From a bacterium (lineage in GTDB: Bacteria; BMS3Abin14): a stretch of 22,000 nucleotides of DNA. Positions 3,731 through 19,920 of the stretch are shown here, in pieces; the first letter of the stretch is position 1; every line of letters starts with the position of its first letter. The notes below the pieces were generated by a model. It saw only the letters and a list, made by a program, of their open reading frames with translations, made no database searches and was not told the DNA's origin. Made by a program: the position numbers and the translations under genes. The DNA is taken from contig JARGFV010000037.1 of NCBI GenBank assembly GCA_029210545.1, positions 1-22,000 on the forward strand, in the 5' to 3' direction.

Positions 3731-5200
3731 TCAAAGAAGTATGGCAGCCGACACCCGCGCCGCTTCCAGGACATCGCCCGGGAGCACACCCAGCAGGATC
3801 GTACCCAAAAGAGCCAGGGCGATCCCTGCCCAGAGGAGGGGCGAAGTTGCGGCGGCAGGCAGTTCGCGTTCCGGTTCCCTCATGTACATGATCATCACGA
3901 CCCGCAGGTAATAGTAGGCGGCCACTGCGCTGTTGAGGATACCGAGGATGACCAGGACGTAATAGCCGCCCTGGAAAGCCGCGTAGAAGATGGACAGCTT
4001 GGCGGCAAACCCCGCTGTCGGCGGGATACCGGCCAGAGAGAACAGGAAGATGAGCATGGCCAGTGCGGCACCGGGAGATCGCCTCGCCAGCCCGGCGAAA
4101 TCGTCCAGGTCATCGTTGGGCATCCCCTCCCTTCCGAGGAAAACGAGGATGCCGAAAGCACCGATGTTCATGAAGGTGTAGGCGAGGAGGTAGAACATGA
4201 CACCGGAGATCGCCCGGTCGCCGCTGCCGCCCACCGAAGCCACCAGACCGATGAGGATATAGCCCACGTGGGCGATGGAGGAGTAGGCGAGCATCCGTTT
4301 CATGTTGGTCTGGGCCAGGGCGGCCAGGTTGCCCAGCGTCATGGTCAGGACAGCAAGGATGGAAACGACCAGCTCCCACTCATGCGCCATCCGGGGCATG
4401 GCCTCCATGAGGATCCGGATGAGCGCGGCAAGACCTGCCGCCTTGGGGCCGGCCGACATGAACGCCGTCACCGGGGTGGGAGCGCCCTGGTAAACGTCAG
4501 GGGTCCACTGGTGGAACGGCACCACTGAGATCTTGAACCCGAAGCCGACCAGCACCATGAGCAGTCCGACCATGAGCGCCTTGTCGCCCAGGGTCTCGGG
4601 GTGAGCGGCCAGGGTCGCGCCGATGACCTTGAGGTGGGTCGACCCGCTGACACCGTAAACGTAGGACATCCCGAACAGGAGGATGCAGGTGGCGAAAGAT
4701 CCAAGCATGAAGTACTTGATGGAGGCCTCGTTGCTCAGGGAATCCTTGCGGAAGAACCCGGCCAGGATATAAAGGGACATGGAAAGGAGCTCGAGCCCCA
4801 GGAAGATCGTGATGAGTTCGTGTCCGATGGCCATGACCATCATCCCCACCGTGGCCAGGCAAAGCAGGGCGTAGTACTCGGAGTGGTCTTTGGACCCTCC
4901 CGCTTTCATGTACCGGAGAGACAGGGCGATGCACAGGATGAGCCCCAGCAGGAAGGTGATCTTGAAAAAGGTGGCGAAGGGGTCGAGGATGACGGCGTCG
5001 CCGAAAGTGGACACGTTCAGGTGCCGCGACAGCCAGGCCACGAGCAGTGCCGCCAGCGAGCCGACAGTGGCGATGATGACCGAATCCAGGTGGCGTTTCG
5101 TCCGGATGATCAGATCCCACAAGATGACCGTGAAGGCGGTCAGGGTGAGGATCAGCTCCGGTGCAATGACCCTGAAATCGGGGAATAGGATGCTCAGCAT
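3731..5200 (-). CDS. nuoN: NADH:quinone oxidoreductase subunit N
   Basis: NuoN is one of three antiporter-like proton-pumping subunits in the membrane arm of complex I. The 489-residue protein is fully membrane-spanning, with about 14 helices. The pumping residues are in place: Glu137 in FLGLELLSMS, Lys223 in GFGFKISVVPFHQW and a later Lys in FAAKLSIF. The length matches the family (about 480-500). The ATG at 5200 is preceded by GAGAGG, and the gene starts 12 bp after nuoM. It is the last gene of the operon; a hairpin repeat begins 4 nt after its TGA. Confidence 0.97.
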   Translation of the reverse strand: MLSILFPDFRVIAPELILTLTAFTVILWDLIIRTKRHLDSVIIATVGSLAALLVAWLSRHLNVSTFGDAVILDPFATFFKITFLLGLILCIALSLRYMKAGGSKDHSEYYALLCLATVGMMVMAIGHELITIFLGLELLSMSLYILAGFFRKDSLSNEASIKYFMLGSFATCILLFGMSYVYGVSGSTHLKVIGATLAAHPETLGDKALMVGLLMVLVGFGFKISVVPFHQWTPDVYQGAPTPVTAFMSAGPKAAGLAALIRILMEAMPRMAHEWELVVSILAVLTMTLGNLAALAQTNMKRMLAYSSIAHVGYILIGLVASVGGSGDRAISGVMFYLLAYTFMNIGAFGILVFLGREGMPNDDLDDFAGLARRSPGAALAMLIFLFSLAGIPPTAGFAAKLSIFYAAFQGGYYVLVILGILNSAVAAYYYLRVVMIMYMREPERELPAAATSPLLWAGIALALLGTILLGVLPGDVLEAARVSAAILL

Positions 5201-5212
5201 GGGACCTCTCCC

Positions 5213-6823
5213 TTACTCGTCAGTTCCGTGGGACGTCCGGGGCGCGACAGTCAGCGTGGCGATCTCGCCCTCAGTGCCTGATGTAATCAGCTCAAGTACG
5301 GTGTGCGACCTGTCGCTTTCCACTGAGCCCACGTTGAGCCGGGTCACCAGGTCGTCCACAGCGGGTTCCATGACCCTCAGGAACGGCTGGGGATAAAGGC
5401 CGATCCAGAAGATAAGGACGATAATGGGCGCCAGGACCAGGATCTCCCGGAAATTCATGTCCTTGATATTCCTGTTCTCCTCGTGCGTGATCTCACCGAA
5501 CATGACCTTCTGGTACATGTGAAGCATGTAGACCGCTCCCAGGATGACGCCGGTGGCAGCCAGAGCACCGAACACGTACATGCCGGCCTTGAAGACGCCC
5601 AGGAGGATCAAAAACTCCCCGATGAACCCGTTCAGGCCCGGAAGGCCGATGGATGAGAAGGTGGCGATGCCGAGGAACACCGCGAAAACCGGCATTTTCG
5701 CCGTCAGGCCTCCGAAATCGTCCAGCATCCTGGTGTGGCGGCGCTCGTAAAGGACTCCTACCAGGAGGAACAACGCCCCGGTGGAAAGACCGTGGTTGAT
5801 CATCTGGAGAACGCCCCCCTGGATCCCCTGGAACGTCATTGTGAAAAGGCCCAGCATGACGAACCCGAGGTGGCTCACGGAGCTGTAGGCGACCAGTTTC
5901 TTGACATCCGGCTGGACCCAGGCCACCAGAGCTCCGTAGATGATGCCCACAACGGCGAGGACTCCGATGACGGGGATCGCTTTGACCGAGGCGTCGGGGA
6001 GCAGGGGCAGGGAGAACCGGACGAAGCCGTAGGTCCCCATCTTGAGAAGGACGCCGGCCAGGATGACGGATCCGGCCGTGGGAGCCTCGACGTGGGCGTC
6101 AGGAAGCCATGTGTGGAACGGGAAGAGGGGAACCTTGATGGCGAAACCCAGAAACAGCGCCCAGAAAGCCCAGAACTGGATCCCCTCGGGCAATGAGCCG
6201 TCAAGCAATTTTACAAGATCGAAGGTGTAAATGCCTGTTGCGGCCGCGTTGGTGAAATAGATGGCGAGAAAACCGATGAGCATGAACAGGCTGCCCACAA
6301 GGGTGTAGAGGAAGAACTTGACCGCCGCGTAGATCCTTCTCTTGCCCCCCCAGACACCGATGAGCAGAACCATTGGGATGAGCATCACTTCCCAGAACAC
6401 GTAGAAAAGGACGATGTCCAGGGAGAAAAAGACCCCCAGCATGCCGGTCTGGAGGATCAGCAGACAGACCATGTACTCCTTGACCCTGTCGGTGATGGCG
6501 GTAAAGGAGGACAGCACCACCAGGACACCGAGGAGGGTCGTGAGGAGGACCAGCAGGAGGCTTATCCCGTCCACCCCCATGAGATACTGGATGCCCAGGC
6601 CGTCGATCCAGTCGATCCGCTCCATGAGCTGGAAGCCCGGCACACCCAGTTTGAAAAGGGGGAGCAGGAACAGGGACGCGGCGAAGTCCGCCAGGGCGAT
6701 CCCGAGGGCCACCTTCCGGATGGCGCCGGCGTTTCGGCCCGGCACCAGCAGGGCCATCAGGATAGCGCCGAGTGCCGGGATGTAGGTGATCAGAGATAGT
6801 ATGGGAAAATTCAGTTCACTCAT
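5213..6823 (-). CDS. nuoM: NADH:quinone oxidoreductase subunit M
   Basis: This is the second antiporter-like proton-pumping subunit of complex I, 536 residues with about 14 membrane helices. The conserved Glu145 (YVFWEVMLIPM) and Lys230 (FAIKVPLFPFHTWLPDAH) are present, as expected for a working proton channel. The C-terminal 35 or so residues after LYPQPFLRVMEP are hydrophilic and somewhat longer than usual. The ATG at 6823 has AGGAAG about nine bases upstream. The 72-bp spacer from nuoL is the longest in the operon and holds a hairpin that includes the nuoL stop codon. Confidence 0.97.
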   Translation of the reverse strand: MSELNFPILSLITYIPALGAILMALLVPGRNAGAIRKVALGIALADFAASLFLLPLFKLGVPGFQLMERIDWIDGLGIQYLMGVDGISLLLVLLTTLLGVLVVLSSFTAITDRVKEYMVCLLILQTGMLGVFFSLDIVLFYVFWEVMLIPMVLLIGVWGGKRRIYAAVKFFLYTLVGSLFMLIGFLAIYFTNAAATGIYTFDLVKLLDGSLPEGIQFWAFWALFLGFAIKVPLFPFHTWLPDAHVEAPTAGSVILAGVLLKMGTYGFVRFSLPLLPDASVKAIPVIGVLAVVGIIYGALVAWVQPDVKKLVAYSSVSHLGFVMLGLFTMTFQGIQGGVLQMINHGLSTGALFLLVGVLYERRHTRMLDDFGGLTAKMPVFAVFLGIATFSSIGLPGLNGFIGEFLILLGVFKAGMYVFGALAATGVILGAVYMLHMYQKVMFGEITHEENRNIKDMNFREILVLAPIIVLIFWIGLYPQPFLRVMEPAVDDLVTRLNVGSVESDRSHTVLELITSGTEGEIATLTVAPRTSHGTDE

Positions 6824-6862: not shown

Positions 6863-6899
6863 CTAGGAGTTTGGATGAGGTTCTCCGACAGACTCCTAG
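6863..6899. other. Intercistronic hairpin spanning the nuoL stop
   Basis: CTAGGAGT (6863-6870) and ACTCCTAG (6892-6899) are perfect 8-bp inverted arms around 21 nt. The nuoL stop codon (6896-6898) is inside one arm. The hairpin occupies the 72-bp nuoL-nuoM gap and could slow ribosomes, mark an RNA-processing site or protect one end of the transcript. Function is inferred. Confidence 0.65.
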
Positions 6900-8830
6900 A
6901 AGAAGGCCCATATCAGGACAAGGACCAGCCCGGCGGCCATGGTAAGCGCGTAGTTCTGGACAAATCCGGTCTGGAGCCTGGCCAGGAACCGTCCCGAAAC
7001 CTGTGCCCCGCCGGCGATCCCGTGCAGGGTCCCGTCGATCCCCTTGCCGTCGAAAATGGTCCAGAAGATCCGGCCGAGCCAGTGCAGGGGCCTTATCACC
7101 ATCCTGTCGTAGACTTCGTCCACCCACCACTTGTTGAAGAACAGGTCGTAGAGGAATTTGAAGTCCTCGTGCACCTCCTCGGTGACCGCCGGACGCTTCA
7201 GGATCATTACGTAAGCGAGGATGATGCCGCCCAGGGCCACCATGACCGAGATCACCATGAGCCCCAGCTCGGCCGCGAGGCTGTGAACGGAATGGGACGC
7301 TTCAGCCCCGTGCCGGGCGGCTGCCGTAAAGAACGGCCCGAGCCAGTTGTGCATCACGTTGGCTTTGAGGAAAACGGGGATCCCCAGGAAACCGCCCACC
7401 GCGGCAAGGAACGCCAGGATCATGAGGGGCACGGTGATGACCGGCGGCGACTCGTGGGCATGGGCCTCCACCTCCGGATCCATGCGGGACTCGCCGTGGA
7501 ACGTCTTGTAGACCAGGCGGAACATGTAAAAGGCGGTCATGAACGCAGTGGTGATACCCAGGATCCAGAGAAGGAACCTCGCTCCTCCGGCATGGCTGAA
7601 GTTGAAGGTGCTGTAAAGGATCTCGTCCTTGGACATGAACCCGGCGAGGGGCGGGATGCCCGCGATGGCGAGGGAGGCGATGAGGAAGGTCCTGTAGGTC
7701 CTGGGCATGATCTTTCTGAGGCCGCCCATCTTGCGGATATCCTGTTCGTCGGACAGGGCGTGGATCACGCTTCCCGCTCCGAGAAAGAGGAGGGCCTTGA
7801 AAAAGGCGTGGGTCATGAGGTGGAAGATGGCCGCGGTGTATGCCCCCACTCCGGCCGCAAGGAACATGTAGCCCAGCTGGCTGACGGTCGAGTAGGCCAG
7901 CACCCTCTTGATGTCGTTTTGAACCAGGGCAATGGTCCCGGCAAAGAGGGCTGTCAGGCACCCGACGACGGCCACGACCATGAGGGCCGCCGGGGCGAGA
8001 TCATAAAGAACGTGGCTGCGGCAGACCATGTAGACACCGGCCGTGACCATGGTGGCCGCGTGGATGAGGGCCGACACCGGCGTGGGACCTTCCATGGCGT
8101 CGGGCAGCCACACGTGGAGCGGCAGCTGCGCCGATTTTCCGCAGGCGCCGATAAAGAGGAGCAGGGCGATGAGAACAACCATGGGTTGACCGGTGTGGAA
8201 CTGGTGCGGGGCCGCGGCAAACACCCTGGTAAAGGACAGGGTCCCAAAGTTCAGGACGATCAGCAGCATCCCCAGCATGAAACCGAAGTCGCCAATCCGG
8301 TTGGTGATGAACGCCTTTTTGCCGGCGTTGGCCGCGCTGTCCTTATGGTACCAGAACCCGATGAGCAGGTAGGAACACAGACCCACGCCCTCCCATCCCA
8401 CGAAAAGCAGCAGGTAGCTGTTGCCGAGGACGAGGAGCAGCATGGCGAACACGAACAGGTTCAGGTAGAGGAAGTACCTCCTGAAACCTCCGTCGTGGTG
8501 CATGTACCCGATGGAATAGACGTGGATCAGAAAGCCGACTCCGGTGACGACCAGGATCATGACCGATGACAGGGGGTCCAGAAGGAACCCGATGTCCGCG
8601 GAGAAGGTGCCTGAACCGATCCACCGGTAGAGGACCACCTCGGTGGTCCTGTGCGCAGCCTCCATGCCTGCCAGCCCGAATACCGAAAGGACGGAAGCGA
8701 GGAATGATGCCCCGACTGCTCCGCTGGCCATGACGCCCACGCTGCTTTCGGACATCTTCCGGCCGAAGGCCAGGTTGACAAGGACGGCCAGGAGTGGAAA
8801 CAGGGGGACCAGGACTACAGCGTCAGTCAT
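6896..8830 (-). CDS. nuoL: NADH:quinone oxidoreductase subunit L
   Basis: NuoL is the distal proton-pumping subunit of complex I, recognised by the long lateral helix at its C-terminus that clamps NuoM and NuoN. The 644-residue length fits. Glu147 (LLFVGWEGVGLCSYLLIGFW region) and Lys232 (ACGKSAQLPLHVWLPDAMEGPTP region) are the expected channel residues. The segment around residues 560-600 (EDFKFLYDLFFNKWWVDEVYD area) is typical of the connection between the last helices. The ATG at 8830 has AGGAG seven bases upstream, and the gene lies 11 bp after nuoK. Confidence 0.97.
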   Translation of the reverse strand: MTDAVVLVPLFPLLAVLVNLAFGRKMSESSVGVMASGAVGASFLASVLSVFGLAGMEAAHRTTEVVLYRWIGSGTFSADIGFLLDPLSSVMILVVTGVGFLIHVYSIGYMHHDGGFRRYFLYLNLFVFAMLLLVLGNSYLLLFVGWEGVGLCSYLLIGFWYHKDSAANAGKKAFITNRIGDFGFMLGMLLIVLNFGTLSFTRVFAAAPHQFHTGQPMVVLIALLLFIGACGKSAQLPLHVWLPDAMEGPTPVSALIHAATMVTAGVYMVCRSHVLYDLAPAALMVVAVVGCLTALFAGTIALVQNDIKRVLAYSTVSQLGYMFLAAGVGAYTAAIFHLMTHAFFKALLFLGAGSVIHALSDEQDIRKMGGLRKIMPRTYRTFLIASLAIAGIPPLAGFMSKDEILYSTFNFSHAGGARFLLWILGITTAFMTAFYMFRLVYKTFHGESRMDPEVEAHAHESPPVITVPLMILAFLAAVGGFLGIPVFLKANVMHNWLGPFFTAAARHGAEASHSVHSLAAELGLMVISVMVALGGIILAYVMILKRPAVTEEVHEDFKFLYDLFFNKWWVDEVYDRMVIRPLHWLGRIFWTIFDGKGIDGTLHGIAGGAQVSGRFLARLQTGFVQNYALTMAAGLVLVLIWAFF

Positions 8831-8841
8831 CGTAAGTTCTC

Positions 8842-9144
8842 CTAGCCCTTCAACTGGTTGATCTCGTCAACGAAGACGGTTTCGAGGTTCCTGTAAAGGG
8901 CCACCACGATGGCCAGCCCCAGGGTAGCCTCAGCGGCGGCGATGGTCATGACGAAGAAGACGAACACCTGCCCGGCCGGGTTCTTCAGGAAATAGGAGAA
9001 GGCCACCAGGTTGATGTTCACCGCGTTGAGCATCAGTTCCACCGACAGGAGGATGATGATGATGTTCCTTCTCATGAGGAAGCCGGTCGCCCCGATGACG
9101 AACAGGAGTACGGCGAGCACGAGGTAGTGGGTCAGGGTGATCAT
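8842..9144 (-). CDS. nuoK: NADH:quinone oxidoreductase subunit K
   Basis: NuoK is a small membrane subunit (100 residues, three helices) that links the quinone site to the antiporter subunits. The two essential acidic residues are at exactly the E. coli positions: Glu36 in [13 protein letters not shown] and Glu72 in [12 protein letters not shown]. Its ATG overlaps the TGA of nuoJ by 4 bp (ATGA), indicating coupled translation. Confidence 0.97.
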
Positions 9145-9653
9145 TCCACATCCTCCCTCTTTGCCAGGACCATGGCGCCGAACATGACCACCAGAAGGAC
9201 AATGGAGGCCAGTTCAAAGGGGAAAAGGAAGGTCGTGTAAAGGGAGCCGCCCACAGCCAGGGTGTTGTCCGGGTTCATCTCCAGGGCGAACTCCGGGAAC
9301 GGTCCGGGGAACAGGCTCCCAACGGCCAGCAGGATCATCAGGATCGCCATGACCAACACCACCATCCCGGCCAGGAGCGATTGCCTGTGGGCGATCCTGC
9401 GCCCCTTGACCTTCCACAGGTTGAACAGGAACACCACGAACAGGTACAGAACCATGAGGGCTCCCGCGGGAACCAGGATCTGGATGGCTGCCAGGAACTC
9501 CGCGTTAAGGAGCACGAAGATGCCGGCCACGTGGAAGAAACAGGGCATCAAAAGAAGCACCGAGTGCACCGGGCTCCGTCGGGAGATCGCCAGCAGGGCG
9601 GTCACAACCGCCACCACGGCAAAGTAAAAGAACATAAACGCATGAAGACCCAT
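9141..9653 (-). CDS. nuoJ: NADH:quinone oxidoreductase subunit J
   Basis: NuoJ is a five-helix membrane subunit (170 residues) in the proton-translocating hinge of complex I. The helix-3 signature reads [20 protein letters not shown]. In characterised homologues the position of Pro62 is a Tyr (VYAGA) in the pi-bulge that rotates during turnover, so this substitution is notable. The ATG at 9653 has TAGGAG eight bases upstream, and the gene lies 10 bp after nuoI and overlaps nuoK by 4 bp. Confidence 0.95.
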
Positions 9654-9663
9654 TCTCGTGCTC

Positions 9664-10110
9664 CTACAGGCGATCGTATCGGGGGTCGTCCCCCTTGGTG
9701 AGCATTTTTTCCCGGCAGATCCGGAGTTGCCCGGGGTCGGTCAACGTCAGTTCGTAATCTTCACCCATGAATACGGCGTCCACGGGGCAGACATCCTGGC
9801 AGTAGCCGCAGTAGATGCAAAGGCCCATGTCGATCTCGTAGCTGTCCACCACCTTCCCGTGGTCCTCCCCCTCGGAGGTTTCGATGAAGATGGCGTCCGA
9901 CGGACAGATCGCCGCGCAAAGGCAGCACCCGACGCACCGCTCCCGGCCGTCCTCGTGCCGCTTGAGGACCTGGGAGCCCCTGAACCTTTCCGGGAGGTCA
10001 TAGTAGACCTCAGGGTACCGGAGGGTCACCGGCCTGGAGAAAAAATACCGGAGGGTCAGGGTAAGCCCCTTGATCAGGTCGGTTTGAAATATGTTTGTCA
10101 TCAAACCCAC
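9664..10110 (-). CDS. nuoI: NADH:quinone oxidoreductase subunit I (2x[4Fe-4S])
   Basis: NuoI carries clusters N6a and N6b, which pass electrons from NuoG towards N2 in NuoB. The 148-residue protein has two CX2CX2CX3C ferredoxin motifs: Cys59/62/65/69 (with an extra Cys63) and Cys98/101/104/108. The N-terminal part (about 8-45) is the amphipathic segment that lies on the membrane arm. I choose the GTG at 10110 because GGGGAG sits six bases before it; an ATG three codons later (10101) would be 15 bases from the same site. It follows nuoH by 16 bp. Confidence 0.95.
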   Translation of the reverse strand: MGLMTNIFQTDLIKGLTLTLRYFFSRPVTLRYPEVYYDLPERFRGSQVLKRHEDGRERCVGCCLCAAICPSDAIFIETSEGEDHGKVVDSYEIDMGLCIYCGYCQDVCPVDAVFMGEDYELTLTDPGQLRICREKMLTKGDDPRYDRL

Positions 10111-10126: not shown

Positions 10127-11167
10127 TCAGGTGATATGGGCCCATCTCAGAATACCCGAGATGAAAACGTTGAAGATGGCCAGGGGCAGGAGGACCTTCC
10201 ACCCCAGGGTCATGAGTTGGTCGTAGCGCAGCCTGGGGAAGGTCCAGCGGACCCAGACGAAGAAGAACATGAACACCGCGACCTTGGACAGGAACCAGAT
10301 CACCGGCATGGCGTACAGCACGATACCGGCAGGCAGGATCCCTTCCACCAGCGGACCGATGACGGGCCATGGCAGCCAACCGCCGAAGAACAGGGTCACC
10401 ATGACGCAGGAGGCTGAGATCATGGCCACATATTCGGCCATCATGAACATGGCCCACCTCAGGCTGCCGTACTCGACGAAATACCCCGCCACCAGCTCGG
10501 TCTCGGCCTCGGGGAGGTCGAAGGGCAGGCGGTTGGTCTCCGCAAAGGCCGACACAAGGAACAGGATGAACCCCAGGAACTGGGGGATAATGAACCATTT
10601 GGGGATAAAGCCGAGCCACAGACCCTGCTGGGCCAGGACGATCTTGGTCATGGAGAGGGAGCCCGAATACATGAGGACCCCGATGACCGAGAGCCCCAGG
10701 GTGATCTCGTAGCTGATCATCTGGGCCGAGGACCTGAGTCCGCCGAGAAGGGCGTATTTGTTGTTGGAGGCCCACCCTGCCATGACGATACCGAACACAC
10801 CGAGGGAGGAAACCGAGAGGATATAGACGAGCCCGATGTTGATGTCGGAGACCTGGAGATGGGGACCCACCGGGATGACGGCGAAGGTCAGCAGTGCAGG
10901 GACGAACGCCATGAGCGGGCACAACAGGAAAAGGACCTTGTCCGCGTCCCTGGGAACGATATCCTCCTTGAGGAACAGCTTCAGTCCATCGGCGATGGGC
11001 TGAAACAGCCCGATCGGCCCGACGTAAAGGGGGCCGTGGCGGTGCTGGATGTGACCGCAGACCTTGCGCTCCACCCAGTTCATCACCGTCACGCCGCCGA
11101 GGGCCACCGTGATGATCCCCACGATCTTGAGGAGGATGATGAGAATGAAGATAAAGGCGTTCTCCAT
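10127..11167 (-). CDS. nuoH: NADH:quinone oxidoreductase subunit H
   Basis: NuoH (ND1 homologue) forms much of the quinone chamber and links the peripheral and membrane arms. It has 346 residues and about eight membrane helices. Signature segments are NWVERKVCGHIQHRHGP (30-46), GPIGLFQPIADGLKLF, the acidic loop ETNRLPFDLPEAETELVAGY, and the C-terminal VRWTFPRLRYDQLM. The reading frame stays open far upstream into the TPR gene, but the true start is the ATG at 11167: AAGGA lies seven bases ahead and the family sequence begins there. It is 13 bp behind the TPR gene. Confidence 0.97.
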   Translation of the reverse strand: MENAFIFILIILLKIVGIITVALGGVTVMNWVERKVCGHIQHRHGPLYVGPIGLFQPIADGLKLFLKEDIVPRDADKVLFLLCPLMAFVPALLTFAVIPVGPHLQVSDINIGLVYILSVSSLGVFGIVMAGWASNNKYALLGGLRSSAQMISYEITLGLSVIGVLMYSGSLSMTKIVLAQQGLWLGFIPKWFIIPQFLGFILFLVSAFAETNRLPFDLPEAETELVAGYFVEYGSLRWAMFMMAEYVAMISASCVMVTLFFGGWLPWPVIGPLVEGILPAGIVLYAMPVIWFLSKVAVFMFFFVWVRWTFPRLRYDQLMTLGWKVLLPLAIFNVFISGILRWAHIT

Positions 11168-11180
11168 CGTGATATCCTTG

Positions 11181-12179
11181 TCAGAAGTCCATGGCCCCGG
11201 ACCGTTTGAGCTCCCCGACCCTCTCGAGCAGGAAGTAGGCCTGGGCGTTGTCCGGATCCAGTTCCATCGCCGTTTTGAACGCCTCTTCAGCCTTGTCGAG
11301 CATGTTGAGCTGCACATAGCTCTCGCCGAGGCGGAAGGGGGCCGAGGAGTTTTTCGGCTCGAGTTCCCGTACCTTGAGGAAGTGGTGGATCGCCTCCTGG
11401 TGTTTGCCCTTCCTGGCCAGGGTGGTGCCCGCGTGGTAGTGGGCAAGGGTGAAGTTGGGCGAAAGTTCCAGTGTCTGCCTGAAGGACTCAACGGCGTCGG
11501 CAAGGTTGCCCTTGTGGTACTGGACGATCCCCTTCCAGTAGTAGGCCATGACGTAGGCGGGGGAGATATCCACCACCTTGTTGAGCGTCTCGAGAGCATC
11601 CTTGAGCTGCCCCTTCTGGTAGTAGATGATCCCCAGTGCGTACATGGCCCGCGCGAACTTGGGGTTCAGCTCGATGGCCTTGCGCAGTTCTTCAGCCGCT
11701 TCCTTGAGCTTGGCGTTGTTCTGGTGCAGGAGTCCTAGCCGGTAGTGGATCTGCGGGGTATTGGGGATGATGGATTCGACCTTGCGGAAATATTTTTCCG
11801 ATTCTTCCAGCCTGCCCAGAGCGTAACAGGAAAGACCCAGGCGGTAGTGGATCGAGGCCAGCTCGGGGTTGACCGCCTCGGCCTGTTTGAACTCCTCGAT
11901 GGCGGCGCTGGTCTCGCCCTTGTCGTGGAAAGCGAGCCCCTTGTAATAGTGTGCCTTGCCGAAACCGGGCAGCTCTTCGAGAGCCTTGTCCCACATGGCG
12001 ATGGCCTTGTCGAACTCACCCCTGTGGTAAAGGTTGATCCCGTCGGCCAGATAGTGGTCGGCCTTCTCGGCGGGGGAAAGGACTGCCATCTCCTCCGCAC
12101 TTCCCACCAGGCGGTGCCCGCACTGGGAACAGAAAAGGCTGTCGCCGGGAACCTCGATATTGCAATGTGAACATTTCAT
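11181..12179 (-). CDS. Zinc-ribbon protein with eight TPR repeats, embedded in the nuo operon
   Basis: This 332-residue soluble protein is not a known complex I subunit. It begins with a zinc ribbon, Cys3-x2-Cys6 and Cys17-x2-Cys20. After a short linker come eight 34-residue TPR units starting near residues 41, 75, 109, 143, 177, 211, 245 and 279, with the usual pattern (for example YYQKGQLKDALETLNKVVDISP). There is no signal peptide or membrane segment, so it is cytoplasmic. The ATG at 12179 has AGGGGG about seven bases upstream; the longer frame adds 22 unrelated residues. It is 25 bp after nuoG and 13 bp before nuoH, so it is translated with complex I. A scaffold or assembly role for the peripheral arm is a reasonable inference, but nothing in the sequence proves it. 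Confidence 0.92.
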   Translation of the reverse strand: MKCSHCNIEVPGDSLFCSQCGHRLVGSAEEMAVLSPAEKADHYLADGINLYHRGEFDKAIAMWDKALEELPGFGKAHYYKGLAFHDKGETSAAIEEFKQAEAVNPELASIHYRLGLSCYALGRLEESEKYFRKVESIIPNTPQIHYRLGLLHQNNAKLKEAAEELRKAIELNPKFARAMYALGIIYYQKGQLKDALETLNKVVDISPAYVMAYYWKGIVQYHKGNLADAVESFRQTLELSPNFTLAHYHAGTTLARKGKHQEAIHHFLKVRELEPKNSSAPFRLGESYVQLNMLDKAEEAFKTAMELDPDNAQAYFLLERVGELKRSGAMDF

Positions 12180-12204: not shown

Positions 12205-14823
12205 CTATCCTTGATCCCCGCCGCCGGGGCGGGAAACGGTAACAAAAGTAATGGTCTTCTCCTTGACGGCGTCGTACTCCATCAGGGAGTTGACCGGCAT
12301 ATCCGCGTAGTGGGACGGGACGAAAACGATCCCCTTCCCGGAATCGCTCGTGACGCTGGCCACAGCCTCGATCTCGCCTTTTCTGCTGGCCACCCGGATG
12401 CGGTCACCATCGTTTATCGCCGCCGCTTTCGCGTCATCCGGGTGGATCCGGACCCTGGCTTCCGGGGCCAACCCGTTAAGCCCCCTGGCCCACTTGGTCG
12501 TGGTCCCGGAGTGGAACAGGGTCGTGCCCGAGATCAGGACAAAAGGATAGTCCGCAGGCGGGGAGTCGATCTCCCGCTGCTCGACGACAACCAGCTGCGC
12601 GCGGCTGTCACCGAAACCGTCCCCGTAAAGGTAGGGGGTGCCCGGGTGACCAGCATCGGGGCAGGGCCAGTGAAGGCCGTCCGCCTCGAGCCTTTCCGGG
12701 AGGATGCCGGCGTAGGAGGGGATCTGACCTGCGATTGCCCTGGTCACGTCCATTGCCTGGGCGAAACCTGCCGGCTTGCCGAACGCTTCAAACAGATCGC
12801 AAAGGATCTTCCAGTCGGCCTTCGCCTTGCCGGGAGCCTCGAGGGCCTTCCTGACACGCTGGACCCTTCTGTCCGTGTTGGTGAAGGTCCCGTCCTTCTC
12901 AGGCCCCGTGGCGGCGGGCAGGACCACGTCAGCCTTGCGTGCCGCTTCGTTCATGAAGATGTCCTGGACGACCAGGAATTCCAGTTTGTCCAGGGCCTCG
13001 GCCACCCTGGCGGGCTCCGGAAAAGCAGTCAGGGGGTTCTCACCCATGATGAAAAGCCCCTTGAGGGTACCGGCGCGGGCCGCCTCCACCATCTCCATGA
13101 CTGTCATCCCGGTCTCACCCGACACCGGCACGTGACCCGGGAGGTACCCGGGCATGGCGCCCATGTCCATGACGCCCTGGACGTTGTTGTACTCGGAAAG
13201 GGGCAGGATGCCGGATCCGGCCTTGCCCACGTTCCCGGTGATCATGGCCAGGTTCGCTGCCGCGGCCACCGTGTCCTCTCCGGTGTAGGAGGCGGTCATG
13301 GGCGAAAGGAGGATGGTCACGGCGGGCGACGCGGCCAGAGCCTTTGCCGCATCCCTGATGCTGTCAGCCGGCACGCCCGTGGTCTTCTCGGCATTTTCCG
13401 GTGTAGCCGCCCTGACGGACTTCCTTAGTTCCTCCAACCCCGTGACGTTGGCGGCCACGAACTCCTTGTCCTCCAGGCCTTCGGCGAGGATGACATGGAT
13501 CATCGCATTGAGCAGTCCGACCGCGGTGCCGGGCTTCATGGCGAGGTAGCTGTCGGCGAAACGGGCCAGTTTTATCTTCCTGGGGTTAGCGACGATGAGC
13601 TTGCTGCCCTCGTACCTGACACACCGCAGGACTTTCAGGCCGACGATGTGCGCGTCCTCGGTGACGTTGGCGTCCACTGCGAAGATGAGGTCGGCCTGAT
13701 CCAGATCGGCAAGGGAATCGGTGGGAGCGGCCATACCGAACGCCTTGTACAGAGCCTCCATGGCAGGGATGTGGCTGAACCGGGCCACCGAGTCCACGTT
13801 GTCGGAACCCAGGACCGTCCTCACGAACTGCTGGAAGAGGTAGTTCTCCTCGTTGGTACACCGTGCCGAGGCGATGCCGCCCAGCGCCTTCCCGCCTCCG
13901 TCGGAGGCGATGGCGCCCACCCCGTCCACGATGGCCTGGTACGCCTCTTCCCATGTGGCTTCGACAAGCTCCCCGTCCTTTCGGACAAGGGGAGTTTTCA
14001 GGCGCTCGGGGCGTCCCACATACTCGTAGCCGAACCTGCCCTTGGCGCACAGGAACCCGCTGTTGTTGGATCCCTCGTCGTCGACACCAAGGACGTGGTA
14101 GATCCTGTCTTTCCTGACCTCAAGGTTGAGAGTGCAGCCGACCCCGCAGAAGGGGCATGTTGTTCTCACCGGGGTCAGTTCCCAGGATGGGGTGGTGTGC
14201 TTGAAAGGACGGCTGTACAGAGCCCCCACGGGGCAGGTCTGGATGCACTGGCCGCAGAACTCGCAATCCATGACCCGTCCGAAGCTCGGCTCCACAACCG
14301 TCCCGAACCCGCGTTCGACGAAATCCAGCTGCCCCTCTCCCTGCACCTCATCGCAGATCCGCACGCACCGGCCGCACTGGACGCACCGGTTCTGGTTCAT
14401 CTCGACGAGGGGGGACAGGACGTCGATCTGCTTGTCCACCTTGACCGACCCGAACCGTCCCGATTCCTTGCCGTGGGCGAAAGCCAGGTCCTGAAGGGTG
14501 CAGCGGCCGGACTGGGGGCAGACCGGGCAGTCGAGAGGGTGGTAGATGAGAAGGAGCTCGATGATGGCCTCGCGGGCCTTGAGGACCTTCTCGGTGGTGG
14601 TGAGCAGTTCCATCCCCTGGGTCACCGGAGTGACACAGGATGCGAAAAGGCGCCCCGATCCCGCATCCTCCACCACACACATCCGGCACGCCCCGAAGGG
14701 CTTCAGGTACTTGTGATCGCAGAAAGTGGGGATGTCGATGCCGATGGCCCTGGCGGCATCGAGCATCGTCGCCCCGGACCGGATCTCCACCTGTTTTCCG
14801 TCTATGGTCAGGTTGACTTTCAT
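12205..14823 (-). CDS. nuoG: NADH:quinone oxidoreductase subunit G, formate-dehydrogenase-like architecture
   Basis: NuoG conducts electrons from NuoF to NuoI. Visible Fe-S sites in the 872-residue protein: [2Fe-2S] Cys35/46/49/63; His95/Cys99/102/108 (N5 type); two complete ferredoxin motifs, Cys147/150/153/157 and Cys187/190/193/197; and an N7-type Cys223/226/230/259 at the start of a molybdopterin-oxidoreductase domain. A molybdopterin-dinucleotide-binding fold follows to the C-terminus (about 755-860). Canonical NuoG has only one composite ferredoxin-type cluster (N4), so this one resembles FdhA and hydrogenase subunits. At the FDH active site (ARVUH in E. coli FdhF) it reads ARFSH: Ser350 replaces the catalytic Cys/Sec, while His351 remains. 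I therefore infer it is not an active formate dehydrogenase. The gene starts 6 bp after nuoF with AAGGAA upstream. Confidence 0.93.
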   Translation of the reverse strand: MKVNLTIDGKQVEIRSGATMLDAARAIGIDIPTFCDHKYLKPFGACRMCVVEDAGSGRLFASCVTPVTQGMELLTTTEKVLKAREAIIELLLIYHPLDCPVCPQSGRCTLQDLAFAHGKESGRFGSVKVDKQIDVLSPLVEMNQNRCVQCGRCVRICDEVQGEGQLDFVERGFGTVVEPSFGRVMDCEFCGQCIQTCPVGALYSRPFKHTTPSWELTPVRTTCPFCGVGCTLNLEVRKDRIYHVLGVDDEGSNNSGFLCAKGRFGYEYVGRPERLKTPLVRKDGELVEATWEEAYQAIVDGVGAIASDGGGKALGGIASARCTNEENYLFQQFVRTVLGSDNVDSVARFSHIPAMEALYKAFGMAAPTDSLADLDQADLIFAVDANVTEDAHIVGLKVLRCVRYEGSKLIVANPRKIKLARFADSYLAMKPGTAVGLLNAMIHVILAEGLEDKEFVAANVTGLEELRKSVRAATPENAEKTTGVPADSIRDAAKALAASPAVTILLSPMTASYTGEDTVAAAANLAMITGNVGKAGSGILPLSEYNNVQGVMDMGAMPGYLPGHVPVSGETGMTVMEMVEAARAGTLKGLFIMGENPLTAFPEPARVAEALDKLEFLVVQDIFMNEAARKADVVLPAATGPEKDGTFTNTDRRVQRVRKALEAPGKAKADWKILCDLFEAFGKPAGFAQAMDVTRAIAGQIPSYAGILPERLEADGLHWPCPDAGHPGTPYLYGDGFGDSRAQLVVVEQREIDSPPADYPFVLISGTTLFHSGTTTKWARGLNGLAPEARVRIHPDDAKAAAINDGDRIRVASRKGEIEAVASVTSDSGKGIVFVPSHYADMPVNSLMEYDAVKEKTITFVTVSRPGGGDQG

Positions 14824-14829
14824 AGCCCG

Positions 14830-16644
14830 TTATTCCTTCACCACGGCGTCGAACTTGCACACCTCGTAGCAGGTATTGCAGTTGGTGCACCGCTCCTGGT
14901 CAATGACATGGACTTCCTTCCTCTCCCCGGAGATGGCTTCTACCGGGCACTTCTTCTTGCAGACCATGCATCCGGTGCAGGCATCCTCCAGGATCCGGTA
15001 TGTGATGAGCGCCGTGCACACCTTGGCAGGGCACTTCTTGTCCCTGATGTGGGCCTCGTATTCGTCTTTGAAATAGCGGATGGTGGATAGGACAGGGTTG
15101 GGAGCGGTCTGGCCGAGGCCGCACAGGGAGGCGCTCTTGATCTGTACCCCCAGGTCCTCGAGGTCCAGGATGTCCTGGTCGGTCCCTTCCCCGCCTGTGA
15201 TGCGCTCTAAAATGGTGAGCATGGTCTTGGTGCCGAGCCGGCACGGTATGCATTTTCCGCAGGATTCGGCGGCTGTGAAGCTCAGGAAAAACCGCGCCAC
15301 GTCCACCATGCAGTCGGTCTCGTCCATGACCACGACACCGCCGGAACCCATCATGGCTCCGGCCTTGATGAGGGAATCGTAATCGATGGCGGTTTCCGCC
15401 AGCTTCGCAGGCAGGCACCCGCCCGACGGGCCGCCCAGCTGGGCCGCCTTGAACTGATTGCCCCCCTCGATCCCGCCGCCGATCTCGTGGATGATCTCCC
15501 TGAGGGTGGTGCCGGCGGGAACCTCGATAAGGCCGGTGTTGTTAATCTTTCCGGTCAGGGCGAAGACCTTGGTTCCCTTGGTGCCTTCCGTCCCTATGTC
15601 GGCGTAACTGTCGGCGCCGTTGAGGATGATGGGGGGGACGCAGGCGAAGGTCTCCACGTTGTTGATATTGCTGGGCTTTTCCCACAGTCCACGGTTGGCA
15701 GGGAAAGGCGGGCGGGACCGGGGCATCCCCCTCCTGCCCTCGATGGACGCCATGAGGGCCGTCTCTTCGCCGCACACGAAAGCGCCGGCGCCTTCCTTGA
15801 TCTTGAGCTTGAACGAAAAATCGGTGCCAAAGATCTTCTCGCCCAGATACCCTTTCTCCTCTGCCTGCCCGATGGCCGTCTTGAGGCGCTTGATGGCGAG
15901 GGGATACTCGGCCCGGCAGTAGATGTATCCGTAGCCGGCGCCGATGGCGTAGGCGGCGATGATCATGCCCTCCAGGACTGCGTGGGGGTCTCCCTCCAGG
16001 ACGCTCCGGTCCATGAACGCACCCGGGTCACCCTCGTCGGCGTTGCAGATCAGGTACTTGGGGGCTCCGTCGGCCTTGGCGCAGAATTCCCACTTCAGAC
16101 CCGTTGGAAACCCGCCGCCGCCCCTGCCCCGAAGACCCGATTTTTTCACGATCTCACGGACGATGGTGGGGGACATCGTATTGAGGGCTTTCTGCACGCC
16201 CTTGTAGCCGTCAGCGTCTATGTAATCCTGGATCAGGTCCGGGTCGATAAAGCCGCAGCGTCTGAGCACGATCCGTTTCTGTTTTGCGAAGACGGGCAGG
16301 TCCTCGTAGGCCGGGATCCCTTCGTATGGTGTCTCTCCGTCGCTAATGATCTGGCCTATGGTGAATTCCTTGACGGGCTCACCGCCCACGAGATGCTTTT
16401 CCAGGATGTCCGCCACCATCTTCGGCTCCACCTTGCGGTAGGTGACCCGGGAGCGCCCCGGCTGGACGACGTCCAGAAGAACCTCCTGGGAGCACATGCC
16501 GATGCACCCCGTCCTGATGATGGGCACCTCCATTTTGAGGCTGCTGAGCCCCTCGTTGACCGCCGCCAGGACCCCTTCGGCCCCGGTGGCCAGCCCGCAG
16601 GTTCCCATCCCGATGAAAATTCTCTGTCCGCCGTCGCTAGCCAT
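14830..16644 (-). CDS. nuoF: NADH:quinone oxidoreductase subunit F, long HndC/HydB-like form
   Basis: NuoF oxidises NADH with FMN and passes electrons to cluster N3. The protein has 604 residues against about 430-450 for canonical NuoF. In order: an N-terminal thioredoxin-like [2Fe-2S]-type domain (Cys16, 47 and 51, with the usual first Cys absent), the NADH/FMN domain (GRGGGGFPTG at 173-182, NADEGDPGAF at 201-210), the SLBB domain, the N3 cluster (Cys462/465/468 and Cys508), and a C-terminal pair of [4Fe-4S] motifs (Cys556/559/562/566 and Cys586/589/592/596). HndC and HydB of NAD(P)-linked hydrogenases share this layout. I chose the ATG at 16644. GTG codons at 16650 and 16656 are possible; GAGGAG is 5 nt from the 16650 GTG and 11 nt from the ATG. 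It follows nuoE closely. Confidence 0.93.
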   Translation of the reverse strand: MASDGGQRIFIGMGTCGLATGAEGVLAAVNEGLSSLKMEVPIIRTGCIGMCSQEVLLDVVQPGRSRVTYRKVEPKMVADILEKHLVGGEPVKEFTIGQIISDGETPYEGIPAYEDLPVFAKQKRIVLRRCGFIDPDLIQDYIDADGYKGVQKALNTMSPTIVREIVKKSGLRGRGGGGFPTGLKWEFCAKADGAPKYLICNADEGDPGAFMDRSVLEGDPHAVLEGMIIAAYAIGAGYGYIYCRAEYPLAIKRLKTAIGQAEEKGYLGEKIFGTDFSFKLKIKEGAGAFVCGEETALMASIEGRRGMPRSRPPFPANRGLWEKPSNINNVETFACVPPIILNGADSYADIGTEGTKGTKVFALTGKINNTGLIEVPAGTTLREIIHEIGGGIEGGNQFKAAQLGGPSGGCLPAKLAETAIDYDSLIKAGAMMGSGGVVVMDETDCMVDVARFFLSFTAAESCGKCIPCRLGTKTMLTILERITGGEGTDQDILDLEDLGVQIKSASLCGLGQTAPNPVLSTIRYFKDEYEAHIRDKKCPAKVCTALITYRILEDACTGCMVCKKKCPVEAISGERKEVHVIDQERCTNCNTCYEVCKFDAVVKE

Positions 16645-16652
16645 GTGCACTT

Positions 16653-17231
16653 TCACTCCTCGGCGGCTTCATCACCGCTGTCGCCTTCGTCCCCGCCCTC
16701 TGCCTGTATCTGGGCGAGGGCCTTTCGCCGGAACTTCTTGATAATGGACTCGGCCTGGTTGGGATCAAGGTTGCCGAAGGCATCGTCGTCGATCATGATC
16801 ACCGGCGCCAGGCCGCAGGCGCCGATGCAGGCCACGTGCTCGAAGGAAAAGATGAGGTCATCCGTGGTGCCGCCGTGGCCGATGCCAAGCTCGTTCTCCA
16901 TCCTCATGATCACCTGTTTGCCGCCCTTGACGTGGCAGGCTGTCCCGGCGCAGGCGCGGATGATGTGCCGGCCCCTGGGGCTCAGGTGGAACTGGGTGTA
17001 GAAGGTCAGGACACCGTAGACCTGGCTCCGGTAGATCCCCATCTCGTCGGCAACGACGTTGGCCGCCTCCTCGGGGACGTAACCGTAATGTTTCTGGACT
17101 CCCTGAAGGACGGGGATGACCATCCCCTTGATATCGTCCAGCCGGTCGAGGATCTCGTAGACCGGTGAGAGGTCGAGTTCCTTAGTCACTTCAGGGCTTT
17201 GAACCGTGCTCTCGGCAGTTTCGAGGTTCAC
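16653..17231 (-). CDS. nuoE: NADH:quinone oxidoreductase subunit E ([2Fe-2S])
   Basis: NuoE binds cluster N1a next to the NuoF flavin. The 192-residue protein has the thioredoxin-like [2Fe-2S] domain with Cys94, Cys99, Cys135 and Cys139 (CAGTACH and CIGACG), preceded by the helical YVPEEAANVVAD region. It is longer than usual (about 155-170) because of an N-terminal extension of about 20 residues and an acidic C-terminal tail (residues 179-192, mostly Glu, Asp and Gly). The start is GTG at 17231 with GGAGG a few bases upstream. It lies 46 bp after nuoD across a hairpin. Confidence 0.95.
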   Translation of the reverse strand: MNLETAESTVQSPEVTKELDLSPVYEILDRLDDIKGMVIPVLQGVQKHYGYVPEEAANVVADEMGIYRSQVYGVLTFYTQFHLSPRGRHIIRACAGTACHVKGGKQVIMRMENELGIGHGGTTDDLIFSFEHVACIGACGLAPVIMIDDDAFGNLDPNQAESIIKKFRRKALAQIQAEGGDEGDSGDEAAEE

Positions 17232-17277: not shown

Positions 17278-18450
17278 CTACCTGTCGATCTCGCCCAGCA
17301 CGATGTCCAGGCTACCGATGATAGCCACCACGTCGGCCAGCATGTTGCCTTTCGCCATGGTGAGAAGGGACTGAAGGTTGACGAACGAGGGCGGCCTTAT
17401 CCGGAGGCGGTACGGCTTGGGGCTCCCGTCGCTCACGATGTAAAAACCCAGCTCGCCCTTGGGGGCTTCGATGGTGCTGTACGCCTCCCCCTCGGAAGGG
17501 GCAAGCCCGTCGATGGCCAGTTTGAAATGGTGCACCATCGCCTCCATGGAGTTGGAGACCCGACTCTTTTCAGGGAATACGTACCTGGCGCTGCGTTCGA
17601 TGAACGGCCCCTCCGGGATCCCCTCGATGAGCTGCCTCAGCATCAGGGAGCTCTGACGCATCTCACGGAGCCGGACAAGGTAGCGGGAATAAACGTCCCC
17701 GTCAGACAGGACCGGCACCTCGAACTGAAGCTCGTCGTACACCTCGTATGGCTCGTCCCTGCGGATATCCCAGTCGACGCCCGAGGCCCTGGCGCCCGGA
17801 CCGGACAGTCCAAGGCTGACGGCGTCCTCCCTGCTGATGACGCCAACCTTTTGGGTCCTTCGCATCCAGATCCGGTTCTTGGTAAGCAGCCTCTCGTACT
17901 CGTTGATCTTCACGTCGAACTTGTTCACGAAGGCCCTTATCTTGTCTGAAAAGTCGGGGAGGATATCCCTGACAACACCGCCGGGACGGAAATAGGTGGG
18001 CATCATCCTCGTCCCGCACGTCTCTTCGATGAGGTCCAGGATGTCTTCCCGCTCTCTGAGGGTGTACATGAGCATGGTGACGGCGCCGATGTCGGCGGCA
18101 TGGGTCCCGAGCCAGAGAAGGTGGCTCATGATCCTGGTGATCTCGGCGATGGAGGTGCGGATGTACTGGGCCCGTCTGGGGACCTCGATACCGAGCAGCT
18201 TTTCCACCGCCAGGATGTAGGCAAGGTTATTGGAGCCCGACGCCAGGTAATCCAGCCTGTCTGTGAGGGGAAGGACCTGGATGTACTTCTTCCCTTCGGA
18301 AAGTTTTTCCACGCCGCGGTGAAGGTACCCGATATCGGGCACGGCGTTGACGACGACCTCACCGTCCAGCTCGAGGATCACCCGGAGAACGCCGTGGGTG
18401 GAGGGGTGATGAGGCCCCATGTTGATGGTCATTATTTCCTGCCTGGCCAC
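17278..18450 (-). CDS. nuoD: NADH:quinone oxidoreductase subunit D (49 kDa homologue)
   Basis: NuoD forms the quinone-reducing pocket with NuoB and is related to the [NiFe]-hydrogenase large subunit. The 390-residue protein has MGPHHPSTHG (11-20), where His19 matches the quinone-binding His, and DRLDY with Tyr68 matching the quinone-binding Tyr. It lacks the N- and C-terminal CxxC pairs that bind nickel in hydrogenases, so it belongs to complex I rather than to a membrane-bound hydrogenase. It is not fused to NuoC. The start is GTG at 18450 with GGGAGG five bases upstream, 12 bp after nuoC. Confidence 0.97.
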   Translation of the reverse strand: MARQEIMTINMGPHHPSTHGVLRVILELDGEVVVNAVPDIGYLHRGVEKLSEGKKYIQVLPLTDRLDYLASGSNNLAYILAVEKLLGIEVPRRAQYIRTSIAEITRIMSHLLWLGTHAADIGAVTMLMYTLREREDILDLIEETCGTRMMPTYFRPGGVVRDILPDFSDKIRAFVNKFDVKINEYERLLTKNRIWMRRTQKVGVISREDAVSLGLSGPGARASGVDWDIRRDEPYEVYDELQFEVPVLSDGDVYSRYLVRLREMRQSSLMLRQLIEGIPEGPFIERSARYVFPEKSRVSNSMEAMVHHFKLAIDGLAPSEGEAYSTIEAPKGELGFYIVSDGSPKPYRLRIRPPSFVNLQSLLTMAKGNMLADVVAIIGSLDIVLGEIDR

Positions 18451-18462
18451 CTTAACCTCCCT

Positions 18463-18972
18463 TTACCAGCGCACCCGGCCACCGACAGGGAACTCCTTGC
18501 GCAACGGGTGCCCCTCGAAGCCGTCCGGGTTGAGGATCCGTCTCTGGTCTGGATGACCTTCGAACCGGATCCCGAACATGTCGTAGACTTCCCGCTCCAG
18601 CCAGTCGGCAGCCCGCCAGACCTTGCAGACCGTGGCGGCCGAGCCGCCTTCGGGCAGGGATACCTTCACGCGAAAGCGCATGCGGTGACCGATGGAATAG
18701 AGTTGATAGACCAGGTCGAACTCGAACCCCTCACGCTCCGGCCAGTGAACAGCCGTGACATCCGAGAGGAAATCGAAACGAAGCTCCGGATCGTCCCTCA
18801 GGAAGGTCAGCAGTTCGATGGCCCGGTCCGGCGGCACAACCGCCCAGACCTCGCCGCAGGAGGTGCCGATCTCGAGGACAGCCGGACCGTAAACCCGGCG
18901 AAGAGCTTCGACGACCGGGTGCTTTTCAGGATCGTCACCGGAAAAGTTCTGGCGGTTCCAGTTAACCGTCAC
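18463..18972 (-). CDS. nuoC: NADH:quinone oxidoreductase subunit C (30 kDa homologue)
   Basis: NuoC is a structural subunit of the peripheral arm next to NuoD. The 169-residue protein carries the family signature [19 protein letters not shown] (124-142) followed by RRIL. The reading frame is open upstream through nuoB, but the start is GTG at 18972: it overlaps the nuoB TGA (GTGA) and GGGAGG stands seven bases upstream within nuoB. This makes it translationally coupled to nuoB. Confidence 0.95.
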
Positions 18973-19523
18973 GCCGTTTCCTCCCTGGTCGGTCCCCGGT
19001 ATCCCGGCTCCACTTTCCTGTGGTCGACCCCGAAGTTCCTCTGCCCGTCGATCTTCATCTGGAGGGTCATGATCCCGTGGATCAGGGCCTCGGGGCGGGG
19101 CGGGCACCCCGGGATGTACACGTCCACCGGGATAATGTTGTTGACTCCCGGAACGACGCTGTAGGTCTGGAAAACTCCTCCGCAGGTGGCGCAGCTCCCC
19201 ATGGCGATGACCCACTTGGGCTCGGCCATCTGGTCGTAGAGCTTTTTCACCACCGGGGCCATCTTGTTGGTGACCGTCCCGGAAACGATAATGAGATCCG
19301 CCTGCCTGGGCGAAGCCCTGAAAACCTCCCAACCAAAGCGGGCCAGGTCGTACCGGGCGCCCGCCGCGGAGATCATCTCGATGGCACAGCAGGCAAGGCC
19401 GAAGGTGAGCGGCCACAGGGACGACCGCTGGGCCCAGTTCATGACCTTGCTGGCCGATGTCAGAAGAATGTTCGCTTCCTGGGGACCGGGCCCCTTGTAG
19501 ACTCTCGTCGGTTTATTCTTCAT
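18969..19523 (-). CDS. nuoB: NADH:quinone oxidoreductase subunit B ([4Fe-4S] N2)
   Basis: NuoB holds cluster N2, the last electron carrier before quinone. The 184-residue protein has the ligands Cys45-Cys46 (GLACCAIEM), Cys111 (MGSCATCGG) and Cys140 (IPGCPPRPE). The N-terminal 25 residues are polar and the C-terminus is short, as in most bacteria. The ATG at 19523 overlaps the nuoA TGA by 4 bp (ATGA); a longer open frame upstream is not homologous and is ignored. There is no strong Shine-Dalgarno close by, which fits coupling to nuoA translation. Confidence 0.97.
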
Positions 19524-19900
19524 CGCCAGTCCAACGCACCCTTTCTCCAGATATAGGCATATCCGAACAGCAGAACCACCATGAACAGGATCATTTCGAT
19601 AAACCCGAATATCACCGGGTCGAATTTGTCGAACAGGATGGCCCACGGATAAAGGAACACCACCTCGATGTCGAAGATGATGAACAGCATGGCCACGAGG
19701 TAGAAGCGGATGTCGAACCGGCGGCGGGCGTCCTTGATGGGCGTCATTCCGCATTCATAGGTCGACGTTTTCTCCTCGTTGGTGTTCTTGCGGAGCAGGC
19801 CCATGACGTGGGAAGCAGCGAGCATCCCGATACCGATGACACCCACGACCAGCAGAAAAATAAAGATGGGCAGGTAACCGACAATGAGATCTTCCCTCAA
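19520..19900 (-). CDS. nuoA: NADH:quinone oxidoreductase subunit A
   Basis: NuoA is a three-helix membrane subunit (126 residues) next to the quinone chamber and NuoH. The signature [19 protein letters not shown] (between helices 1 and 2) and [15 protein letters not shown] are unmistakable. It is the first gene of the nuo operon. The open frame reaches further upstream, but no in-frame ATG or GTG has a ribosome site. The best start is TTG at 19900, with GGGAGG seven bases before it and the protein beginning [11 protein letters not shown] as in other NuoA. A TTG start at the head of the operon may limit expression. Confidence 0.93.
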
Positions 19901-19920
19901 AACGAAACCTCCCTTAAGCT

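Follow-up and report, generated by a model that had tools for sequence, protein, structure and literature searches.

Does a NuoG subunit whose large domain resembles formate dehydrogenase (FDH), and which carries serine where FDHs carry their catalytic cysteine or selenocysteine, still perform formate chemistry, and how did such a protein come to serve in respiratory complex I? The gene in question lies in a window of 22,000 bases that is one whole contig of a 2.7 Mb genome (241 contigs, 97.5% complete), within a complete nuoA-N operon on the minus strand in the order nuoA, B, C, D, E, F, G, a TPR gene, nuoH, I, J, K, L, M, N (Table 1), where nuoE, nuoF and nuoG sit between nuoD and nuoH in the middle of the 14 nuo genes. 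Relatives were sought in 12 genomes of the small phylum concerned, all of one family. The TPR gene is kept between nuoG and nuoH in most of these relatives at 52-56% identity, and was not found at that place in one of them (G008, L033).

Table 1. Genes and sites of the nuo operon in the window, listed in the direction of transcription
Feature	Position	Strand
nuoA (start approximate)	19520..19903	-
nuoB	18969..19523	-
nuoC (start approximate)	18463..18972	-
nuoD	17278..18450	-
nuoE / bfuC: thioredoxin-like [2Fe-2S] subunit, C94, C99, C135, C139	16653..17231	-
nuoF / bfuB: N-terminal thioredoxin-like part, FMN domain, SLBB, B1 cluster, C-terminal dicluster ferredoxin	14830..16656	-
NuoF CPAKVC (C542, C547), conserved in Bfu-type NuoF and absent in plain NuoF; putative B2 site	15016..15033	-
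NuoF B3/B4 dicluster ferredoxin Cys (C560 to C600)	14857..14979	-
nuoG / bfuA, 872 aa, ATG start; five Fe-S ligand sets and an FDH-like Mo-bisPGD-type domain without catalytic residues	12205..14823	-
NuoG N1b-type [2Fe-2S] ligands C35, C46, C49, C63	14635..14721	-
NuoG N5-type ligands H95, C99, C102, C108	14500..14541	-
NuoG first ferredoxin motif C147, C150, C153, C157	14353..14385	-
NuoG second ferredoxin motif C187, C190, C193, C197 (absent in E. coli NuoG)	14233..14265	-
NuoG N7-type ligands C223, C226, C230, C259	14047..14157	-
NuoG Ser350 (AGC) at the FDH Cys/Sec position	13774..13776	-
NuoG His351, counterpart of FdhF His141, kept	13771..13773	-
NuoG Ser543-Glu544-Tyr545 replacing FDH Arg-Gly-Gln (FdhF Arg333)	13189..13197	-
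TPR protein, N-terminal CxxC..CxxC motif, between nuoG and nuoH	11181..12179	-
nuoH	10127..11167	-
nuoI	9664..10101	-
nuoJ	9141..9653	-
nuoK	8842..9144	-
nuoL	6896..8830	-
nuoM	5213..6823	-
nuoN	3731..5200	-

Because NuoG matches the Pfam families Molybdopterin (3e-68), Fer2_4, NADH-G_4Fe-4S_3, Fer4_Nqo3 and Molybdop_Fe4S4, together with NCBIfam models for both protein types, its likeness to FDH is not a matter of chance, and the homology proposed for the large domain is upheld by alignment with E. coli FdhF, in which residue 350 pairs with Sec140, H351 with H141, S543 with R333 and K261 with K44. The protein, encoded within a nuo operon, scores above the cut-off of the NCBIfam NuoG model TIGR01973 (476.3 against 470.05 bits) and below that of the Fdh-alpha model TIGR01591 (609.1 against 666.25 bits), on which an active Cys-FDH taken as control (L051) reaches 874 bits. 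An AlphaFold2 model built from 21 sequences (mean pLDDT 77, with residues 125-212 poor) finds its best full-length fold matches among NAD-linked FDHs (8j83, Z 45.9, rmsd 7.3 over 778 residues), and its predicted Mo domain superposes on E. coli FdhF with Z 44.0 and rmsd 2.1 over 649 residues, though a fold held in common with FDH shows no function. HydA shares only about the first 205 residues with this NuoG. A literature search returned no paper matching NuoG as "formate dehydrogenase-like".

The original prediction of five clusters agrees with the ligand sets, all of which are complete (CCCC, HCCC, CCCC, CCCC and CCCC for N1b, N5, the two ferredoxin motifs and N7), so that the protein could hold five clusters, within the range of three to five described for NuoG proteins, which lack the molybdenum cofactor (PMC5123574). 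The second ferredoxin motif occurs in most nuo-operon NuoG proteins sampled from Desulfobacterota and Nitrospirota and is absent from E. coli NuoG and two Nitrospirota proteins; the idea that two ferredoxin motifs specially mark this NuoG was discarded, as they are common in the NuoG of anaerobes.

At the catalytic site, the serine read from the sequence is confirmed: codon 350 is AGC and falls on FdhF Sec140. Selenocysteine at this position was ruled out, the codon being AGC in an open frame without recoding. The nine closest relatives, all of the same phylum, carry glycine (seven) or alanine (two) at position 350, leaving serine to the window genome alone, and this variation also eliminates Ser350 as a conserved molybdenum ligand. 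The active-site histidine is kept in all nine orthologues, each of which has SEY in place of the RGQ of active FDHs, and the catalytic arginine has become serine in all ten members of the clade; further changes turn TGR into SGT and MGxTQ into PMxAS. Among 114 Mo-domain columns that are at least 97% invariant in 99 sampled active FDHs (those with Cys or Sec, His and Arg), the window NuoG keeps 83, including His351 and Lys261, and the losses fall on 21 of the 36 columns in active-site and pterin loops as against 10 of the 78 elsewhere, the loops (around residues 336-395, 505-515, 540-547 and 763-768) having been picked after seeing the data and guided by what is known of FdhF. A count independent of the loops points in the same direction, with 13 neighbouring pairs of lost columns where 8.2 were expected (p = 0.02).

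Judged from these residues, the FDH-like domain is very probably catalytically dead, and formate chemistry is very unlikely because both the ligand and the arginine are lost. The suggestion that a pterin is retained sits poorly with the glycine or alanine of close kin, the clade-wide loss of arginine and the concentration of changes in the loops; because most FDH-invariant columns persist, His351 and Lys261 among them, the domain might nonetheless bind a pterin or nucleotide while doing no chemistry.

The partners of NuoG, missed earlier, tell more about function than Ser350 does, as NuoE and NuoF are of the HydBC/Bfu type. NuoF scores above the cut-off for PF01512, PF10531, PF10589 and Fer4, which we take to correspond to IPR011538, IPR019554, IPR019575 and IPR017896; NuoE (PF01257, 2.4e-49) has its four cysteines and the NuoE-type domain IPR002023, and NuoG has Fer2_4 and Fer4, as expected of a protein with IPR001041 and IPR017896. 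The four NuoF domains are those by which BfuB has been defined (PMC9304861), and the NuoE and NuoG domains are those of BfuC and BfuA. Bifurcating enzymes are the best solved relatives of NuoF (NiFe-HydB 7t2r at 2e-241, an Nfn-ABC subunit, StnB 8oh5 and HydB 7q4v), with Thermus Nqo1 (6e-119) and R. capsulatus FdsB (4e-107) far behind. The putative ligands of B1, B3 and B4 are all present, the CPAKVC motif is the same as in NiFe-HydB 7t2r, and the B5 [2Fe-2S] site has three of the four cysteines of 7t2r. In the NuoF tree, the window protein is sister to four NuoF proteins of Desulfobacterota nuo operons (100/95), inside the Bfu type and apart from plain NuoF.

Domains, ligands and operon thus fit an already-known type of complex I, Nuo-Bfu, which we consider the operon quite likely to encode. 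Nuo-Bfu was described in 2022, also in Geobacter, with the proposal that NADH and reduced ferredoxin are oxidised together while menaquinone is reduced, a confurcation that is itself a prediction (PMC9304861). Applied to the window, the proposal would give a proton-pumping quinone reductase of 14 subunits, in which NuoE, NuoF and NuoG form an input module of the electron-bifurcating HydBC/Bfu type. NADH at the FMN of NuoF and reduced ferredoxin at its C-terminal clusters may be oxidised jointly, and electrons would pass along the cluster chain of NuoG to NuoI, NuoB and then presumably menaquinone, a flow that would power proton pumping through NuoH and NuoJ-N. The genome contains futalosine-route menaquinone genes (two PF02621 hits). 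The FDH-like domain of NuoG, derived from an active formate dehydrogenase, would now lack a working Mo/W cofactor and act as a scaffold around the N7-type cluster, and the second ferredoxin cluster, if occupied, would form a side branch left over from the electron wire of FDH. We hold this account as a whole, cofactor-less scaffold included, to be probably correct.

That the operon instead encodes an ordinary NADH:quinone complex I, in which the extra NuoF clusters are vestigial and ferredoxin goes unused, seems to us unlikely, even though bifurcation by Nuo-Bfu is so far only predicted, the B5 site has three of its four cysteines, and bifurcation is absent from those members of the wider HydABC-like group that lack B2-B5 (PMC9304861). 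Against such a reading, the B3/B4 cysteines and the CPAxxC site are fully conserved, and NuoF stands far nearer the proven bifurcating HydB and StnB than plain Nqo1.

On the origin of the FDH-like NuoG, similarity and phylogeny diverge. By identity, the clade comes closest to Sec-FDHs of Solincola (47%), with one nuo-operon NuoG at 46%. In trees resting on quick searches, with a long E. coli branch and without full bootstrap, the clade falls outside the set holding the active FDHs, both at full length (97) and over the first 216 residues, a part that makes no contact with the Mo site (98). When the Mo-domain tree is rooted on FDH-N-type enzymes, nearly all proteins without the cysteine, among them the E. 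coli type, form one set (99), although proteins losing the same cofactor may be drawn together, and this set is nested in the FDHs by branches of 88-94 only. The same set contains an FDH-like NuoG that adjoins NuoA-, NuoJ-, NuoK- and NuoL-like genes (L109, 9986-12664) and has glutamate at the Cys/Sec position with the catalytic histidine and arginine kept; it may be an intermediate or have a different activity. A tree of 36 rows separates the active FDHs from every Cys-less NuoG-type row with an SH-aLRT of 100, and AU tests on that set under LG+G4 reject joining the clade to the active FDHs it most resembles (p = 0.002) and do not reject the clade as next neighbour of the active FDHs in the unrooted tree (p = 0.64). 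The grouping with Desulfobacterota nuo operons seen for NuoF does not recur for NuoG (AU p = 0.055).

These results bear on whether the nuo operon of this phylum once took in an fdhCBA operon whose catalytic subunit then lost its activity and displaced the original NuoG. Such a history could account for the closeness of the clade to Sec/Cys FDHs (47% to Solincola FdhA), for the second, plain NuoEFG set that stands beside the FDH-like one in most relatives, and for the mixing of FDH-operon and nuo-operon NuoF in the NuoF tree. We nevertheless find it improbable, as the AU test rejects the required grouping, the Mo-domain tree unites the clade with other Cys-less NuoG types, the N-terminal part also places it outside the FDHs, and its high identity reflects slow change rather than recent descent. 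Most simply, the retirement of the Mo site looks like an old one common to NuoG-type proteins rather than a recent local event, and the clade like a slowly changing branch near the FDH/NuoG split. The original prediction offered an FDH retired into complex I or a shared older form; the latter is the better fit, and the former, as an event of this lineage, is not favoured. The protein is thus placed with NuoG-type proteins, yet its second ferredoxin motif has all its cysteines. Separate retirements in other lineages may have occurred, because two further proteins (L188 and L194) lie beside an active FDH in the full-length tree and elsewhere in the Mo-domain tree.

Serine can ligate molybdenum in the DMSO reductase group. 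That the window NuoG is an active Mo/W enzyme with such a ligand and another substrate is highly improbable: His351 and Lys261 remain, and FdhD and an intact Sec-FDH-N are encoded in the genome, so the cofactor is probably made, but glycine or alanine at position 350 in the nine closest relatives, serine for arginine throughout, and the RGQ, TGR and MGxTQ replacements all speak against it.

Several other FDH-like proteins depart from the usual catalytic set. On another contig of the same genome (C14), two FDH-N alpha-like genes lie side by side (L035, 4463-7276 and 9049-12147), one of them intact with Sec (TIGR01553, 1403 bits) and the other a diverged paralogue of 937 aa with serine before the histidine at the Sec position and no arginine (379 bits, below the cut-off), which is a second, separate retired FDH-like protein in this genome. 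Two full-length FDH-like proteins from other genomes (L168 in G100 and L174 in G094) have the catalytic cysteine with glutamine or leucine for histidine, and L168 also has cysteine for arginine, which could reflect sequence error or an unusual enzyme. Two nuo-operon NuoG proteins (L183 and L194) have cysteine at the catalytic position without the histidine and arginine, probably through chance drift. On the current view that NuoG arose from a Mo/W formate dehydrogenase, the present clade, among the least changed cofactor-less forms sampled, helps to reveal the residues given up in the transition and what persisted through it: the histidine, the lysine next to a cluster and the second ferredoxin cluster. 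The operon also adds one lineage to the Nuo-Bfu type, whose confurcation is still a prediction.

The double-module operons of the relatives are more unusual than the window gene and are a better lead. In at least six genomes (G001, G002, G003, G006, G007 and G011) two NuoG genes lie no more than a few kilobases apart, and in G002, G003, G006 and G011 (L028, L030, L029 and L034) the order is nuoD, E1, F1, G1, E2, F2, G2, TPR, nuoH onward, in which F1 is a plain NuoF and F2 belongs to the set adjoining the FDH-like NuoG. In F2 of G002, Fer4_20 and Pyr_redox_2 domains of the NfnB/GltD type stand in place of the C-terminal ferredoxin, and this NuoF-NfnB fusion aligns over its full length in G003, G006, G011 and G010; the window genome and G008 have a single NuoEFG set whose NuoF keeps the ferredoxin domain. 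A limited literature search found no description of the double-module arrangement. We tentatively suggest that complex I of this phylum has exchangeable or doubled input modules, a plain NADH module (E1F1G1) and one with the FDH-like NuoG, whose NuoF has either a ferredoxin domain, as in the window, or an NfnB-type FAD/NADPH domain, as in most relatives, so that one membrane arm might be fed by NADH, ferredoxin or NADPH. If their products act together, the operons with the NADPH-type NuoF fusion would represent a new way to feed complex I. Three further genomes (G145, G042 and G116; L189, L190 and L191) have NuoF-NfnB fusions beside NuoG-like proteins without the catalytic cysteine, with no nuo genes in the stretch examined around them, and these are possibly soluble Stn-like transhydrogenases.

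Among the closest known systems is Nuo-Bfu of Geobacter sulfurreducens and others (PMC9304861), with which the window operon shares a nuoA-N operon with BfuABC-type NuoEFG in the middle, a NuoF with FMN, SLBB, B1 and a C-terminal dicluster ferredoxin, and a NuoG with N-terminal clusters and an FDH-like domain; it differs in coming from a different small phylum and in the TPR gene between nuoG and nuoH, and its NuoG keeps 83 of the 114 FDH-invariant columns, compared with 66-73 in proteins from the Desulfobacterota nuo operons that form the sister group of the window in the NuoF tree. StnC of the Stn (Nfn-Bfu) transhydrogenase of Sporomusa ovata (8oh5; PMC10482914) likewise combines a five-cluster NuoG domain, an inactive FdhF-like domain and HydBC-type partners, but adds a GltD/NfnB domain in a soluble complex, whereas the window NuoG belongs to the operon of a membrane complex I. 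FdsA, of the NAD-dependent FDH of Rhodobacter capsulatus (6tg9), has the same full-length domain order and five cluster sites, and FDHs of its type are the best full-length fold matches of the modelled NuoG; in place of its active-site residues Cys386, His387 and Arg587, which accompany bis-MGD (PMC7171172), the window NuoG has Ser, His and Ser, and FdsB, the partner of FdsA, is without the bifurcating clusters. The Sec/Cys FdhA proteins of fdhCBA-type operons in Nitrospirota, Solincola and Desulfobulbaceae (L041-L115) share 41-47% identity, the architecture and NuoE-NuoF-like partners with the window protein, but keep Cys or Sec, His and Arg and lie outside nuo operons. Canonical NuoG, as in E. 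coli and Thermus (Nqo3), is alike in operon position, in N1b, N5, one ferredoxin cluster and N7, and presumably in having no Mo cofactor, whereas the second ferredoxin motif is missing in E. coli and 33 of the 114 FDH-invariant columns are retained against the 83 of the window protein.
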